Shown piece by piece: positions 8,710 through 24,014 of a stretch of DNA of 64,000 nucleotides. The stretch comes from Psychrobacter sp. GP33 (GTDB lineage Bacteria; Pseudomonadota; Gammaproteobacteria; Pseudomonadales; Moraxellaceae), in NCBI RefSeq assembly GCF_014119005.1, contig NZ_JACGYX010000002.1, forward strand, positions 62,001 through 126,000. The letters run 5' to 3'. Under the pieces are notes generated by a model. It saw only the letters and a program-made list of their open reading frames with translations. It had not been told where the DNA came from and ran no database searches. The position numbers were made by a program, and so were the translations under genes. Every line of letters starts with the position of its first letter. The stretch's first letter is position 1.

Positions 8710-9381
8710 CTATTTCATAAAGCCGTTATCCGCTAAAAAGGCTTCCGTTAACGTACTTGCAGTAGATACAGGTGCTGTATTAGGCTGAGATTTATTAAGC
8801 AGGCGCTCTAAATAACGCGCAACAATATCCACTTCAATATTGACTTTACTACCCACCAGCCAATATTCAGCAATATTAGTTAGCTGAGCAGTATGAGGAA
8901 TGATATTTAAGCAGACAATATTGTCTCGTACTACATTAGTAGTCAGACTAATGCCATCTACCGTAATTGATCCTTTAGTTGCCGTAAAATGCGCAATCTC
9001 TACTGGAACCTCAATCTCAATGTAGAGTGAGCGCGCATCTTTTTGTAGTTTGCGTACTATACCCACCCCATCAACGTGACCAGCAACGATATGACCACCA
9101 AAACGGGTCGTTGGTAACATTGCCTTTTCTAAATTCACCTTATGACCTATTTTCAAATCTTCAAGTGCAGTTCGGGATATTGTTTCACGTGAAACGTCAA
9201 CAGCATAGTAATTACTACCTAAATCAACTACGGTTAAGCAAATACCATTACAAGCAATAGAATCACCTAAAGATACATCGCTAAAATCTAATCCCTTAGA
9301 TTCAATCAATAAGCGGATATCACCGCCAATAGGCTGCATGGCTTTTACTTTGCCCATACTTTCAATAATTCCAGTAAACAT
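8710..9381 (-). CDS. ribE: Riboflavin synthase, alpha subunit
   Basis: Converts two 6,7-dimethyl-8-ribityllumazine molecules to riboflavin plus a pyrimidine. Two tandem lumazine-binding barrels are visible: the first begins MFTGIIESMGKV with the GDSIACNGICLTV motif, the second carries GGHIVAGHVDGVG and KGSITVDGISLTT. 223 aa is normal. The start has AGAGGGCG at good spacing. A parS site (9181-9196) lies inside the gene and encodes V-S-R-E-T, at a place where the family commonly has a similar V-x-x-E-T. It is in the same direction as ribD but 434 bp away, so it may have its own promoter. No FMN riboswitch was recognised upstream. Confidence 0.96.
   Translation of the reverse strand: MFTGIIESMGKVKAMQPIGGDIRLLIESKGLDFSDVSLGDSIACNGICLTVVDLGSNYYAVDVSRETISRTALEDLKIGHKVNLEKAMLPTTRFGGHIVAGHVDGVGIVRKLQKDARSLYIEIEVPVEIAHFTATKGSITVDGISLTTNVVRDNIVCLNIIPHTAQLTNIAEYWLVGSKVNIEVDIVARYLERLLNKSQPNTAPVSTASTLTEAFLADNGFMK
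9181..9196. promoter_or_regulatory. parS site 3 (in ribE)
   Basis: TGTTTCACGTGAAACG; perfect 14-bp core. Confidence 0.85.
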
Positions 9382-9648
9382 AGCGCCCTCTGCCTTTATA
9401 GATAAATATTATGATAATAAATGGTTAATTTTAAATTAAGAATACTGGGTAATAATAATGAATGGTTAGCATAAGTTGTGGATAACTTATAAATTGGTAG
9501 TAGAAAACAAGACTTTAATTAGTAATATGAATAGTTATCCACAAGTTTCACCACAATAACAACCAGATAATAATTAATGCTTATATTACATAAGTCATTG
9601 ATTTAAAATTATTTTTCTCTATTAAACTAGAAAATCTTTGATTCATAC

Positions 9649-9664
9649 TGTTTCACATGGAACC
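9649..9664. promoter_or_regulatory. Degenerate parS 4 (ribE-ribD spacer)
   Basis: TGTTTCACATGGAACC; left partner of an inverted pair with site 5. Confidence 0.5.
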
Positions 9665-9682
9665 TAATAAAAAGTTATGCAC

Positions 9683-9698
9683 AGTTCCATGTGAAACC
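9683..9698. promoter_or_regulatory. Degenerate parS 5 (ribE-ribD spacer)
   Basis: AGTTCCATGTGAAACC; its 14-bp core is the exact reverse complement of the core of site 4. Confidence 0.5.
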
Positions 9699-9815
9699 TA
9701 TTATGGTTTATTAAGTTATCTACATTGAGTAGAGCTTAGATAAATAGGAGGATAACATTATATTTATAAACAGCTTATTCCTAAAACAATAATAAAATAA
9801 GTGATTGTCTGTAAG

Positions 9816-10883
9816 TTAGTGAAGGGGTGATAAAGTAATCTTTAGATCATTGCCTACTCGTTGCTGATTCGCATATTGAAAGCGCAGCTGCTGTGCTAAT
9901 GATAACGGATTAAAATCTATCATAGCTCGCGCCTGTGTACCCAGTAAACAGGGGGCTTGATAGACAATCAGCTCATCCACTAATTGCTGACTTAAAAAAC
10001 TACCGGCAACACTTGCGCCTGCTTCCACTAAAATATCATAACACTGATAGTCGCTAACTAAAGTGGCTAGTAGCTCTGGCAGATTATCGTCACGCCAATA
10101 CAGAGTATCCGCACGGCGGCACAAGTGATACTCAGAATGTACGTCATGGTCTAAGCGTTTTCGTCTATCGAGCACCACTACTTTAGGAGCAGGAATATCT
10201 TCTAGGGCAACTCCGAGTCTGGTCGAACGCACATTTAGCTGAGGATTGTCCGCGATAACCGTGCTGCTACCGGTAATAATGGCACCGCTTTGTGCCCGTA
10301 ACTGCTGAACGTCTTCACGCGCAGCGGCTGAGGTAATCCATTTAGACTCTCCTGATGCCATAGCGGTCCGACCATCAAGGCTAGTCGCTATTTTTAGACG
10401 TACATAGGGCAATTGGGTACGCATTGCCTTTAAAAAGCCACGATTCAGTGCTTCAGCCTGCTCTGTCAGAACGCCTACTGTCACTTCAATACCTGCTTGC
10501 TCCAGTAACGTAACCCCACGTCCTGCTACTTGCGGATTGGGGTCAAGTCCAGCGATGACGACTCGTTTAATACCAGCCTTAATCAACGCTAGCGCACAAG
10601 GGGGCGTGCGTCCAGTATGACTACAAGGTTCTAGGGTGACGTAGGCCGTACCGCCTTCGGTTTTGTTACCTGTATTAATAGCATCGTTAAGTGCAAATAC
10701 TTCAGCATGCGGCTGACCAACCTTCGGGTGAAACCCTTGCCCGACGACCACCCCTGCTTGTACGATGATGCAGCCGACAGCCGGGTTTGGGCGCGTGGTA
10801 TATTGTCCACGCTGAGCCTGCTCAATAGCAAACGTCATAAAATAGCGGTCTGTGGCAGCTTGTGCATGGTCTAACAGAGACAT
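9816..10883 (-). CDS. ribD: Bifunctional riboflavin deaminase/reductase RibD
   Basis: Performs two steps of riboflavin synthesis: deamination of the diaminopyrimidine product of GTP cyclohydrolase II, then NADPH reduction of the ribosyl side chain. The N-terminal zinc deaminase has the ligands in PHAEVFAL and PCSHTGRTPPCA. The C-terminal reductase starts near residue 150 (YVRLKIATSLDGRTAMASG) and ends with the VEAGASVAGSFL region. 355 aa is typical. The ATG at 10883 has AAGGG upstream. It lies 52 bp downstream of nrdR, the common nrdR-ribD order, and is probably in one operon with it. Confidence 0.96.
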   Translation of the reverse strand: MSLLDHAQAATDRYFMTFAIEQAQRGQYTTRPNPAVGCIIVQAGVVVGQGFHPKVGQPHAEVFALNDAINTGNKTEGGTAYVTLEPCSHTGRTPPCALALIKAGIKRVVIAGLDPNPQVAGRGVTLLEQAGIEVTVGVLTEQAEALNRGFLKAMRTQLPYVRLKIATSLDGRTAMASGESKWITSAAAREDVQQLRAQSGAIITGSSTVIADNPQLNVRSTRLGVALEDIPAPKVVVLDRRKRLDHDVHSEYHLCRRADTLYWRDDNLPELLATLVSDYQCYDILVEAGASVAGSFLSQQLVDELIVYQAPCLLGTQARAMIDFNPLSLAQQLRFQYANQQRVGNDLKITLSPLH

Positions 10884-11474: not shown

Positions 11475-12926
11475 TTACTTGCCAATACAAAAGCTACCAA
11501 AAATCTTACCAAGCAAATCATCGGCGCTAAATTCGCCCGTGATTTCACCCAGATATTGCTGGGCGTAGCGTAAACTTTCTGCCACCAGTTCTCCCGCTTG
11601 AAATACGGTTAATTGTTCATGAGCGTCTACCAAGCAATCAGCCGTGCGTCTGAGCGCATCCAAATGCCGGGTTCGGGCTATTAAACTGTTTTCAGGAGGA
11701 TGAAAGCCCACTTTAGCACATAATATTTCGATTAAATCTGCAATTCCAGCACCTGTTTCACATGAAACATGCACCTGCTCATAGCCGCGACTGTTCAGCT
11801 CTATTTGCGTAGCTGAAGTATGCTTATTATTATTAATATTATTTAGTAAATCACTTTTATTAGCGATAATAAGCAAACGCTTAGCGGCTGGCAGCTCGCC
11901 GAACAATTGCTCTGCCAGCTGCAATGGGGTCGCATCATCATCAATATCACGCGTAACATCATAGACCATCAGCAGCATATCTGCCTGCTCAATAGCGGTT
12001 CGCGCGCGCGCAATACCAATACGTTCAACCATATCATCGGTATCACGTATCCCTGCAGTATCAGTTAAATGTAGCGTTAAGCCATTCAGAACTACCGTTT
12101 CTTGCAACGTATCACGTGTGGTCCCTGCCACGTCGGTGACAATAGCGCGCTCTTGACCTGCGAGTCGATTTAATAAGCTAGATTTGCCCGCATTCGGTCT
12201 GCCAGCGAGTACCACATGAATGCCGTCACGCAATAGCTGACCTTGCTTTGCTGTCATTAATACCTGCTGAATTTGGCGTTGTGTCTGCTCAAGCTTGCTT
12301 TGAATCACACCATCGGATAAGAAATCCACGTCCTCTTCATCTGGAAAATCAATCGCTGCCTCAACATGCAACCGCAAATGAATCAACTGCTCTAATAAGT
12401 GGTTAATATGCTGTGAAAACTCACCACTGAGCGAGCGAATGGCACTACTAGCCGCCGCCGCACTGGTTGCATCAATGGCATCCGCGATAGCTTCAGCCTG
12501 TACCAAATCCATTTTATCATTGTCAAAAGCACGGTAAGAAAATTCACCGGGCGCCGCCTGCTTTGCTCCTAATTCAAACACCCGTGCTAACAATAGGTTT
12601 TGCAAAATCATGCCGCCATGACCTTGAAGCTCGATGACATCTTCACCGGTAAAGGAGTGCGGAGCGCGAAAATAGAGCACCAATCCTTCATCAATAACCG
12701 TACCATCCGCTTGATAAAAACGGCAGAAACTTGCCAATCTGGGAGTAAAGCCAGATTTTCCAGTTAATTGACAGGCAATGGCATAGGCTTTGGCACCTGA
12801 AAGGCGAATGATACCTACACCACCGCGACCCAATGGCGTTGCGATAGCAGCAATGGTGATCATGCCAGACGCATGAGATGGCTCAGATGACGCAATGGAG
12901 GCTAAGCCCGCTTTGACAGAATCCAC
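11475..12926 (-). CDS. mnmE: tRNA modification GTPase MnmE
   Basis: With MnmG it forms the 5-carboxymethylaminomethyl group on wobble U34 of some tRNAs. An N-terminal folate-binding domain (about residues 22-140) leads into a helical domain interrupted by a G domain (about 230-400) with [23 protein letters not shown] and NKSD. The C-terminal CIGK motif, which supplies the catalytic Cys, ends the protein. The start taken is GTG with GAGAG upstream; ATG at residue 22 ([15 protein letters not shown]) is the family-like alternative at 12863. A parS-like site (11754-11769) encodes the V-S-C-E-T-G segment. MnmG is not in the window. Confidence 0.95.
11754..11769. promoter_or_regulatory. parS-like site 6 (in mnmE)
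   Basis: TGTTTCACATGAAACA; one central change from the consensus. Confidence 0.65.
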
Positions 12927-16160: not shown

Positions 16161-16735
16161 AACTCACCTATCAAATAATGGACTAAATTCGTAATAACGA
16201 AGGATTATATCATTCTCACTAATTTGGGTCAATAAACTAATTCAACTCATGTTTATATATCCAGCTTAGTAAGTTCTTACAGTGATACTAAATTTTAAGA
16301 GCCCTGTTCTTTTAGAAATAGCAACTGCCATAAGTTAGACTAGCTTATCTAAATTTTATAAAGTTATCCACAGAAATCCTGTCTTTCAATAATAATTGTA
16401 ATTTATGTATATATAGATATTGTTGTTATTGGGGAGCTTGTTTTCTGTGGTTAAGTGGTTTTTCTTCTTCAATATTAATATCTTAGACTATGGGTAAACC
16501 TGTGGATAAGCTGTGGGTTAATAGGGGGTAACTCGCTTTTATGATTTATCTAAAAAACAATCCACAGGGTTATCCACAAAAAACACCATGTTATCCACAG
16601 GTTATTTATGCTAGATTAGCAGCCTATTTCAATATCCGATTTTATAATTTTTATAAGACTAACGCTCCTCTTTGGTTACTGAACATCATAACTTGATTAG
16701 AGCATTCACTATAATTTATGAGGTTAGCGTTTTTA
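16161..16735. other. oriC: Chromosomal replication origin oriC
   Basis: Between rpmH and dnaA lie perfect DnaA boxes TTATCCACA at 16364-16372, 16570-16578 and 16591-16599 (plus) and TGTGGATAA at 16501-16509 (minus). Variants are TGTGGTTAA at 16446-16454 and TGTGGGTTA at 16512-16520. AT-rich stretches at about 16375-16440 and 16605-16650 are candidate unwinding elements. The last two boxes and their AT-rich right flank resemble the usual box/DUE arrangement before dnaA. Promoters for dnaA and rpmH must also lie here. No GATC clustering is apparent. Confidence 0.9.
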
Positions 16736-19619: not shown

Positions 19620-20858
19620 ATGATTGAACGTCTACAAATCTCGCATCTGCGTAATCTTCAGCAGGTTAATCTCTCGTTGGGCGCCTGTAATGTCATTATT
19701 GGTGCTAATGGGAGCGGTAAAACATCATTATTAGAGGCAGTATTTTTATTATCGCGCGGTAAAAGCTTCCGTCATAGCCAACCAAAACGCTATGTTCAAC
19801 ATCATCAGGCTGCTGCCGTGGTTCATGCCAGTTTGACGGATGGTAGCAGCTTAGCGATTCAAAAGCAGGCAGATGCTACGACTGTTTTACGCCTTAATCA
19901 AACCACGGTTTATAATCAAAGTGTCTTAACTGAACAGCTGCCAACTTTGCTCATAGACCCATCTTCAATGGATATGTTAGAGCAAGGCAGTGCCAGTCGT
20001 CGTCAGTTATTAGACTGGCTAGTGTTTCACATGAAACAAGGCTTCCATCCGCAATGGGTTGCCTATCAACGTCTACTTAAACAGCGCAATAGCTTATTAA
20101 AACAAACTAAACACCTCTCTCATAATCAGCACGCTGAGCTAAAAGCTTGGGATAAAGGGCTTGCCAATCACGCCGCTCTAATTCACCATTATCGTTTGCG
20201 TATTTTTGAAGCGTGGCAGCCTTATTTTGCAGAAAGTATTCAGCAACTATTACCGTCTTATGCCGAGCAATTAAGCTTAAGCTATACTCCTGGCTACGAT
20301 ACCAGCATACCTTTAGATGAGCAGTTAGCCGAGCGCTTGCCGCAAGATTTGCAACTGGGCTATACCCGTATCGGTAGCCACCGTGCAGATATTCATGTGC
20401 ATTGGCGCTCTCAACGTAAAGTTGTGCCAATAAGTTCCACAGAGTCAGAAGTAGGGGATAAAGAAGCTATTGATAAAGTGCAGACTCTTAAAGAGATTGA
20501 GCTCAAAGAATCAGTTATCAAAGAGCAGGCGGCAAACATACTGTCACGTGGTGAGAAAAAATTACTGATTACCGCATTACGCTTATCGCAATTACCTTTG
20601 TTACTGAATGCGGGACAGGCTGTAGACCCAGCGCAATTGTCTAATCATGCTAATGCGACCCCAATTGTATTATTGGATGACATTACAGCGGAGCTGGATG
20701 ATAGGGCGATTGATATTCTGTTATCAACTTTAGCGCAGCTGCCTTGTCAGGTTATTATGACCAGTTTGACAGCAGATATTCTTCCGCAAATTCATAATTA
20801 CTGGTTAGTATCAAAGGTGTTTCACGTGAAACAGGGTGTCGTTTCATCTCTTAAATAG
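19620..20858 (+). CDS. recF: Recombination mediator RecF
   Basis: SMC-like ATPase that helps RecOR load RecA at gaps. Walker A GANGSGKTSLLEA (near residue 33), the ABC-type signature ILSRGEKKLL and Walker B IVLLDDITAELDD are intact. A charged insertion of about 35 residues precedes the signature motif, making 412 aa against about 360. I chose ATG 19620 because GGTGAG lies just upstream; the frame also offers GTG at 19611. Two parS-like sites (20023-20038 and 20818-20833) lie inside and encode VFHMKQG and VFHVKQG, the second in the C-terminal tail. Confidence 0.94.
   Translation: MIERLQISHLRNLQQVNLSLGACNVIIGANGSGKTSLLEAVFLLSRGKSFRHSQPKRYVQHHQAAAVVHASLTDGSSLAIQKQADATTVLRLNQTTVYNQSVLTEQLPTLLIDPSSMDMLEQGSASRRQLLDWLVFHMKQGFHPQWVAYQRLLKQRNSLLKQTKHLSHNQHAELKAWDKGLANHAALIHHYRLRIFEAWQPYFAESIQQLLPSYAEQLSLSYTPGYDTSIPLDEQLAERLPQDLQLGYTRIGSHRADIHVHWRSQRKVVPISSTESEVGDKEAIDKVQTLKEIELKESVIKEQAANILSRGEKKLLITALRLSQLPLLLNAGQAVDPAQLSNHANATPIVLLDDITAELDDRAIDILLSTLAQLPCQVIMTSLTADILPQIHNYWLVSKVFHVKQGVVSSLK
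20023..20038. promoter_or_regulatory. parS-like site 7 (in recF)
   Basis: TGTTTCACATGAAACA; identical to site 6. Confidence 0.65.
20818..20833. promoter_or_regulatory. parS site 8 (recF 3' end)
   Basis: TGTTTCACGTGAAACA; perfect consensus inside the RecF C-terminal codons. Confidence 0.9.

Positions 20859-24014
<3,156 letters not shown>

Follow-up and report, generated by a model that had tools for sequence, protein, structure and literature searches.

The intergenic spacer between ribD and ribE of Psychrobacter sp. GP33 carries a compact arrangement of DnaA boxes, parS-like sites and an IHF-like site, and is described here as a candidate DnaA/parS-like site, situated 7 kb from oriC, whose conservation extends well outside this strain. 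Each of the 61 Psychrobacter spacers compared, that of the window among them, retains the layout, and this is decisive for the reality of the observation. The window, which is the whole stretch of 64,000 nucleotides analysed, is part of contig C12 of a genome of 2.87 Mb in 29 contigs. A preliminary description of the same DNA had proposed an accessory DnaA/ParB locus in the spacer and had named conservation of the boxes in relatives with ribE-ribD among the checks to be made; this comparison was carried out and its outcome agrees with the proposal.

The spacer (9382–9815, 434 bp, 26% GC) was delimited by the ends of the two neighbouring open reading frames, which are outside the element and were identified by their protein families as ribE, riboflavin synthase (8710–9381, minus strand), and ribD (9816–10883, minus strand). 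Pattern matching located an inverted pair of TTATCCACA boxes, the outer partner at 9477–9485 (–) and the inner one, in the same direction as the core box, at 9535–9543 (+), with 49 bp between them, in agreement with the two perfect inverted boxes about 50 bp apart previously noted. The third box, said to fit TTWTNCACA, is the core box TTATGCACA (9675–9683, +), and the weaker fourth one was recovered by pattern as TTATCTACA (9716–9724, +). The core box is enclosed by two parS-like sites, GTTTCACATGGAAC with a CA centre (9650–9663, +; pattern match) and GTTCCATGTGAAAC (9684–9697, +), the exact reverse complement of GTTTCACATGGAAC, and abuts the latter with zero gap. Between the inner box and the core lies an IHF-like site missed by the preliminary description, AATCAATGACTTA (9591–9603, –), which matches WATCARNNNNTTR, taken here to be the IHF consensus. 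A CG-centre parS, GTTTCACGTGAAAC, is present near the element within ribE (9182–9195). The four TTATCCACA boxes of oriC, upstream of dnaA (16364–16599), were used as reference and place oriC at the distance of 7 kb first reported.

The two parS-like sites had been described as a 14-bp parS inverted repeat enclosing the third box. Both sites are present and enclose that box, but the hairpin is not conserved, because the repeat consists of two copies of a near-palindrome that most of the 60 relatives carry in the same direction. An RNA element was considered and rejected, as relatives do not preserve the inverted repeat in hairpin form and no Rfam match at the gathering threshold was obtained in the window.

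Single boxes mean little, since TTWTNCACA has 239 sites genome-wide, versus 195 for the reversed control, and is not enriched across the 64-kb window (10 matches versus 8.7 expected; 38 of 100 shuffles reach 10). The presence of at least three TTWTNCACA in 434 bp has a Poisson P of ~8e-6 at the genome mean rate, a value that ignores the 26% GC of the spacer. Only 0.016 pairs of TTATCCACA within 58 bp are expected genome-wide, and the 28 TTATCCACA sites of the genome are found within 250 bp of another only at oriC (four), in the spacer pair and in one pair on contig C25. For the parS family GTTYCAYRTGRAAC, 16 sites were counted genome-wide, every one within C12:58639–127378, that is, in one 68-kb stretch round oriC, and the reversed-pattern control of GTTYCAYRTGRAAC has no genome site. 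Five of these 16 sites, both spacer sites included, have a CA/TG centre.

A scan for ribE over the genome contigs yielded the best 80 of 339 loci, L001–L062 being those of Psychrobacter. A ribD match was present in 60 of these 62 loci (none in L001; L016 has 252 bp before ribE), which together with the window gave the 61 spacers. All of them contain two parS-like sites, a core box between these sites (at most one mismatch; exact TTATNCACA in 59) and the inverted box pair (at most one mismatch to TTATNCACA per box; both boxes exact in 59). The 59 exact core boxes are TTATACACA in 42 cases, TTATGCACA in 15 and TTATCCACA in two, so that the core box is rarely TTATCCACA. The IHF consensus WATCARNNNNTTR is found at a narrow position between the second parS-like site (as counted on the ribE strand) and the inner box in 50 of the 61 spacers, with a chance expectation by shuffling of ~2% per locus; the remaining 11 lack the strict consensus. 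On the far side of the core, an exact plus box (ribE strand) is present in 28 of 61 spacers and an exact minus box (ribE strand) in 39; the latter, found somewhere on that side, have the direction of TTATCTACA. The weak fourth box of the window is probably a decayed version of a conserved box, since exact boxes occur on this side in relatives.

Mean column identity was 93.6% in the named motifs, which were picked on the same alignment, and 58.1% elsewhere. The 61 spacers form 31 groups at 80% identity, and the element is therefore not one recent copy. A close parS pair was detected in 104 of 105 Psychrobacter genomes, the exception being a genome 83% complete; the pair sequences are those of the matches listed, which run to G276, and some of the pairs may be situated at other places. 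In 94 of the 105, a DnaA box in core orientation has a parS-like site no more than 25 bp away, at whatever place in the genome. In 47 loci, 7.2–8.7 kb separate ribE from the start of the dnaA match.

Additional parS pairs were also observed. At G265:C2:61450–61517 there is a tandem parS-box-parS-box-parS, the core being duplicated like an iteron, and at least two close parS pairs are present in 34 of 105 Psychrobacter genomes. Among the matches listed (to G276; e.g. L093, L100), the second pairs lie ~12–19 kb from the core, apart from that of G274, on another contig, and measure 49–56 bp end to end, the G265 tandem excepted. No DnaA box occurs within 1.5 kb of the second pair in the two loci inspected.

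The inverted pair measures 57–59 bp start to start in 61 of 61 Psychrobacter spacers, and 47–48 or 57–60 bp in Moraxella. Core to inner box distances in Psychrobacter are 129–135 bp (55 loci) or 140–145 bp (6 loci), those from parS to core box 14 bp (59 loci) or 24 bp (2 loci), and those from core box to parS 13 bp (56 loci) or 20, 22 and 23 bp (5 loci), the window, with 20 bp, being among the less regular cases. The IHF consensus is located 43–47 bp past the second parS-like site in the 50 spacers that have it. The internal spacings shift mostly by about one helical turn. The length of the element is 209–237 bp, its distance to the ribE start 64–401 bp and that to the ribD stop 42–327 bp. Given these mostly turn-sized shifts and a freely variable distance to ribE, the element looks like an autonomous, self-contained nucleoprotein site and not like a ribE promoter. 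When the six distinct pair spacings of Moraxella were tested for helical phasing, p was ~0.004 against a crude, uniform null, with phylogeny ignored; the test does not fix the period, since periods of 11 to 12 gave a slightly larger resultant than 10.5.

In Psychrobacter, core box and parS-like site adjoin with zero gap in 57 of 61 spacers; in Moraxella, a box adjoins a parS-like site equally closely in 10 of 19. The parS consensus of B. subtilis is given as 16 bp long (PMC7022226), and a parS of 16 bp would overlap the core box, since no gap separates it from the parS-like site.

The parS-like sites of the spacer match the degenerate parS family and are located near oriC, with a CA/TG centre instead of CG; across L001–L062, 121 of the 122 sites in the spacer have a non-CG centre. 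The parS inside ribE recurs at its position in 32 of the 62 loci of relatives, with a CG centre in 32/32. Together with a core box that is rarely TTATCCACA, the off-CG centres might be read as a tuned balance between two proteins, which is one reading of the data. A deliberate weakening of the sites was considered and is uncertain, because non-CG centres are found outside the spacer too, at 14 of 71 other sites and at all 57 of those in trmE. A match of parS strength to box strength (a CG-centre parS with TTATCCACA, in G240 and G321) was rejected, being seen in two genomes and contradicted by Moraxella, in which CG-centre parS sites stand beside TTTTCCACA.

The trmE site of the window is a parS-like site at 11755–11768 (TG centre on the ribE strand), within a gene which we take to be trmE by gene order. 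Of the 62 loci of relatives, 57 have such a site at this position, also with a TG centre, and the five others contain <2.5 kb of sequence on that side; the site may reflect coding constraint or parS function.

The genome encodes one ParB_N protein, with a ParA-like gene just upstream. The ParA-like protein has ParA_partition as its best NCBIfam match, below the cut-off. The ParB_N protein passes the cut-off of parB_part, and its best NCBIfam model by E-value is Noc (182.8 bits versus a cut-off of 315). The separate Noc-like competitor proposed in the preliminary description is not supported, as the sole ParB_N protein fails the Noc cut-off, passes parB_part and follows a ParA-like gene. IhfA and IhfB are present and pass their cut-offs, and an HU-like protein is also encoded. 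Binding of ParB to the half-sites GTTCCAC/GTTTCAC is reported for P. aeruginosa, whereas the same source describes none for B. subtilis ParB and weak binding for Caulobacter ParB (PMC10419367).

Outside Psychrobacter, 20 of 22 Moraxella genomes were queried, and 19 of them yielded ribE together with ribD. Of these 19 spacers, 17 contain three or more TTWTNCACA boxes, 17 the inverted pair (at most one mismatch per box) and 13 at least one parS-like site, with none matched in the other six. Six of the 19 have an IHF consensus 47–49 bp past a box, placed on the strand opposite to that of Psychrobacter. The Moraxella arrangement is, to judge from these motifs, a looser variant of the element. In genus g8, two exact boxes and two parS-like sites occur in three of four queried loci, and the layout differs, the close-parS-pair and parS-box patterns of Psychrobacter matching none of six genomes. 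The remaining loci queried contain no parS-like site and a single TTATTCACA (L146); they have a spacer of 0–151 bp, or ribE 0.9–1.3 kb from ribD, or a flank with no ribD match. The putative element is not in the other genera sampled apart from g8. In genus g2, ribE lies ~214–287 kb from dnaA in three genomes. Among 369 genomes sampled across the class, the parS-plus-box pattern is found in the genome of the window and one other.

The Moraxella genome G223 has the same gene order and lacks the element. In G193, of genus g8, ribE is located ~34 kb from dnaA with no ribD adjoining, and such a cluster is absent both from the 450 bp preceding ribE and from the 17 kb of sequence examined ahead of dnaA, although these stretches do contain box pairs at 13 and 30 bp from each other. 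The element is dispensable in evolution, since it is absent from G223 and was not found in G193.

Among the genomes searched, the only parS within 25 bp of a DnaA box outside Psychrobacter and Moraxella are at L169 (G444) and L179 (G177), between relatives of the window ORFs 19620–20858 and 21390–24014, presumably recF and gyrB by gene order. At G240:C1:2018836–2020297, dnaA matches in two pieces, one of them with two internal stops, which may represent a sequencing error or a real disruption.

For comparison, datA, DARS1 and DARS2 of E. coli K-12 were measured as yardsticks, at the positions that we assume for them in that genome. The E. coli datA region (L207) has a plus box at 2745, an IHF site at 2810 (–) and a plus box at 2907, with 65 and 97 bp between starts. 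The Psychrobacter arrangement consists likewise of a plus box, an IHF-like site on the minus strand and a plus box, with 55–58 (one 67) and 74–88 bp between starts; in the window the three start at 9535 (+), 9591 (–) and 9675 (+), and 50 of 61 spacers share this arrangement of two same-direction boxes flanking one IHF site. By position and span, the E. coli boxes at 2745 and 2907 would be datA boxes 2 and 3, and TTGTAAACA at 2733 of L207 would be box 7. The stretch 2733–2915 spans 183 bp, and the minimal size of datA is published as 183 bp, 262 bp being also given (PMC5742627).

Both datA and the Psychrobacter element are non-coding, lie on the oriC side and have two strong same-direction boxes flanking one IHF site in the same orientation (PMC5742627). 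They differ in that the Psychrobacter element is 7 kb from oriC versus about 0.47 Mb for E. coli datA, is placed at ribD-ribE and not at glyVXY-queG, and has an extra inverted box. It also has parS-like sites built in, which the account of datA consulted does not describe (PMC5742627). A counterpart of box 7, the essential low-affinity box that lies 12 bp from the first box of E. coli datA, was sought, and no conserved block occurs 12 bp from the inner box in the 61 spacers. The element resembles datA in layout and is not called datA, because the low-affinity box counterpart and the shared neighbourhood are absent.

The best reading of the element is, tentatively and with somewhat less than an even chance, an autonomous, oriC-proximal, datA-like cis site that lowers DnaA activity and that ParB can gate. 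From the observed conservation we infer protein binding, looping, hydrolysis and gating as follows. DnaA would bind the inverted pair and the core box, and IHF would bend the DNA between the same-direction boxes at 9535 and 9675, bringing them together as at E. coli datA. Soon after duplication of the site, DnaA would be held there or its ATP hydrolysed, discouraging re-initiation. ParB bound to the enclosing and abutting parS-like sites would exclude or remodel DnaA at the core box, and the state of the partition complex would gate the amount of DnaA removed by the site. A ParB-gated datA in the full sense, a single conserved site where ParB and DnaA compete for touching sequences and where assembly of the segregation complex on the freshly replicated origin sets the speed of DnaA switch-off, is possible and is put forward with distinctly less confidence. 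Titration of DnaA, and competition between DnaA and ParB, both first suggested for the spacer, are compatible with the abutting box and parS-like site, binding itself being a prediction from these sequences.

This datA-like, ParB-gated reading is supported by the joint retention of boxes, parS-like sites and IHF-like site at nearly fixed spacing in Psychrobacter, by the ParA-like, ParB-like, IhfA and IhfB proteins encoded, and by the restriction of the parS-like family to the surroundings of oriC. Against it stand the low-affinity box with no conserved counterpart, the 11 of 61 spacers without the strict IHF consensus, the non-CG centres of 121 of 122 spacer parS-like sites, half-site binding that differs among ParB proteins (PMC10419367), and Moraxella, where 6 of 19 spacers lack a parS-like match and the IHF consensus, present in 6 of 19, is on the other strand. 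The datA model moreover assigns no role to the inverted box pair, which counts against this reading, as do G223, which lacks the element, and G193, in which it was not found.

Further related systems are described in two other organisms. In Caulobacter, parS and DnaA binding occur together ~7–8 kb from the origin (PMC6399470, PMC4468827), but this bacterium belongs to another class, and the Psychrobacter element has an IHF-like site, stepwise spacing and CA-centre parS-like sites touching a DnaA box. At rctA/parS2 and the 39-mers of Vibrio cholerae chromosome II, a partition protein and an initiator share or compete for sites near the origin (PMC3688505, PMC6399470), the initiator being RctB at 39-mers on a secondary chromosome versus DnaA at 9-mers in Psychrobacter. 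An opposition of ParB2 to RctB (PMC3688505), a ParB1-DnaA interaction (PMC7022226), both in Vibrio, and half-parS binding in Pseudomonas (PMC10419367) are reported. Most of what is known of the coupling between origin firing and origin segregation comes from Caulobacter, from chromosome II of Vibrio and from the action of ParA/Soj on DnaA (PMC6399470, PMC7022226, PMC4468827). No description of a ribD-ribE DnaA/parS site was found in the titles and abstract openings of the open-access literature among the matches listed. The conserved site suggests a switch linking chromosome copying to chromosome sorting. If true, a ParB-gated datA would be a direct, DNA-level coupling of segregation and re-initiation on a primary, DnaA-driven gammaproteobacterial chromosome. 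The element is kept across >100 Psychrobacter genomes, one per species, and the likely DnaA and ParB sites touch, so that point mutations can address the coupling.

Among the alternatives, a segregation trigger, in which DnaA at a centromere-like cluster would signal ParABS to start origin movement and would not lower DnaA, is rather unlikely but the best of them. In Caulobacter, parS lies less than ~8 kb from Cori and a DnaA site is reported as needed for DnaA-dependent partitioning (PMC6399470, PMC4468827); the distance to the origin is similar here, and parS-like sites abut DnaA boxes in two genera. Such a trigger leaves unexplained, however, the IHF-like site, the flanking same-direction boxes and the stepwise-spaced inverted pair, and the parS-like sites are off-consensus although a CG-centre parS is nearby in 32 of 62 loci.

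Plain titration, by which strong boxes duplicated early would soak up DnaA while the parS-like sites serve partition independently, is unlikely. It agrees with the up to six exact TTATNCACA boxes per spacer (L002, L003) near oriC, and an oriC-proximal enrichment of boxes has been proposed as a titration device in E. coli (PMC12371093), but it needs neither the fixed spacing nor the zero-gap abutment of box and parS-like site.

Regulation of ribE by DnaA and ParB, tying riboflavin synthesis to the cell cycle, is improbable. The element lies between ribD and ribE, and ribE would need a promoter there if the gap is not read through; yet the distances to both genes vary widely while the element is nearly fixed, and there is no conserved promoter block. 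A ribE promoter was accordingly rejected, promoter-like matches being at the shuffled level (4 versus 4.2) and the distance variable.

The second part of a split oriC, as also suggested for the spacer, is disfavoured and very improbable. DnaA boxes with an IHF-like site, a 26% GC content and a low stability could be taken in its favour: among the 15 least stable 60-bp stretches in the window, three fall in the spacer and none in oriC. Against this, the 61 ribE-ribD spacers have no conserved AT-rich block adjoining any box, the cumulative GC-skew minimum over 96 kb is at ~15 kb and not at 9.5 kb, and the spacer between dnaA and its neighbour, named rpmH on the assumption of gene order, shows in 45 aligned rows several conserved DnaA boxes and AT-rich blocks, forming an oriC-like region.

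The weakest alternative, a reactivation site of the DARS type, can hardly apply and is rejected by geometry: DnaA boxes, some oppositely directed, and an IHF-like site are present and DARS2 needs IHF (PMC5742627), but the three-box core that DARS1 and DARS2 of E. coli have in common (one box opposed to the two that follow; 14 and 12 bp), whose measured geometry agrees with the published description (PMC5742627), is missing both from the window and from each of the 61 spacers, and is present upstream of recA.

This last site (G000:C25:200669–200703; L176, 4670–4704), upstream of a recA-like gene, is a candidate Psychrobacter DARS. It consists of TTATCCACA-NNN-TTATCCACA followed by an opposite one-mismatch box, at 12 and 14 bp, as in the DARS core, and an IHF-like site is located at a distance of 98 bp. 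Psychrobacter may hold a datA-like plus a DARS-like site, which suggests that control of these two types may extend beyond near relatives of E. coli. The pair pattern of the C25 site occurs in 42 of 105 Psychrobacter genomes. Eleven of the 12 loci fetched have an opposite third box (1–2 mismatches) at 14 bp and an IHF-like site at 98–99 bp, the 12-bp step being set by the search pattern; the twelfth (L199) is oriC. A RecA match, named as such from its sequence, lies beside 9 of the 11.
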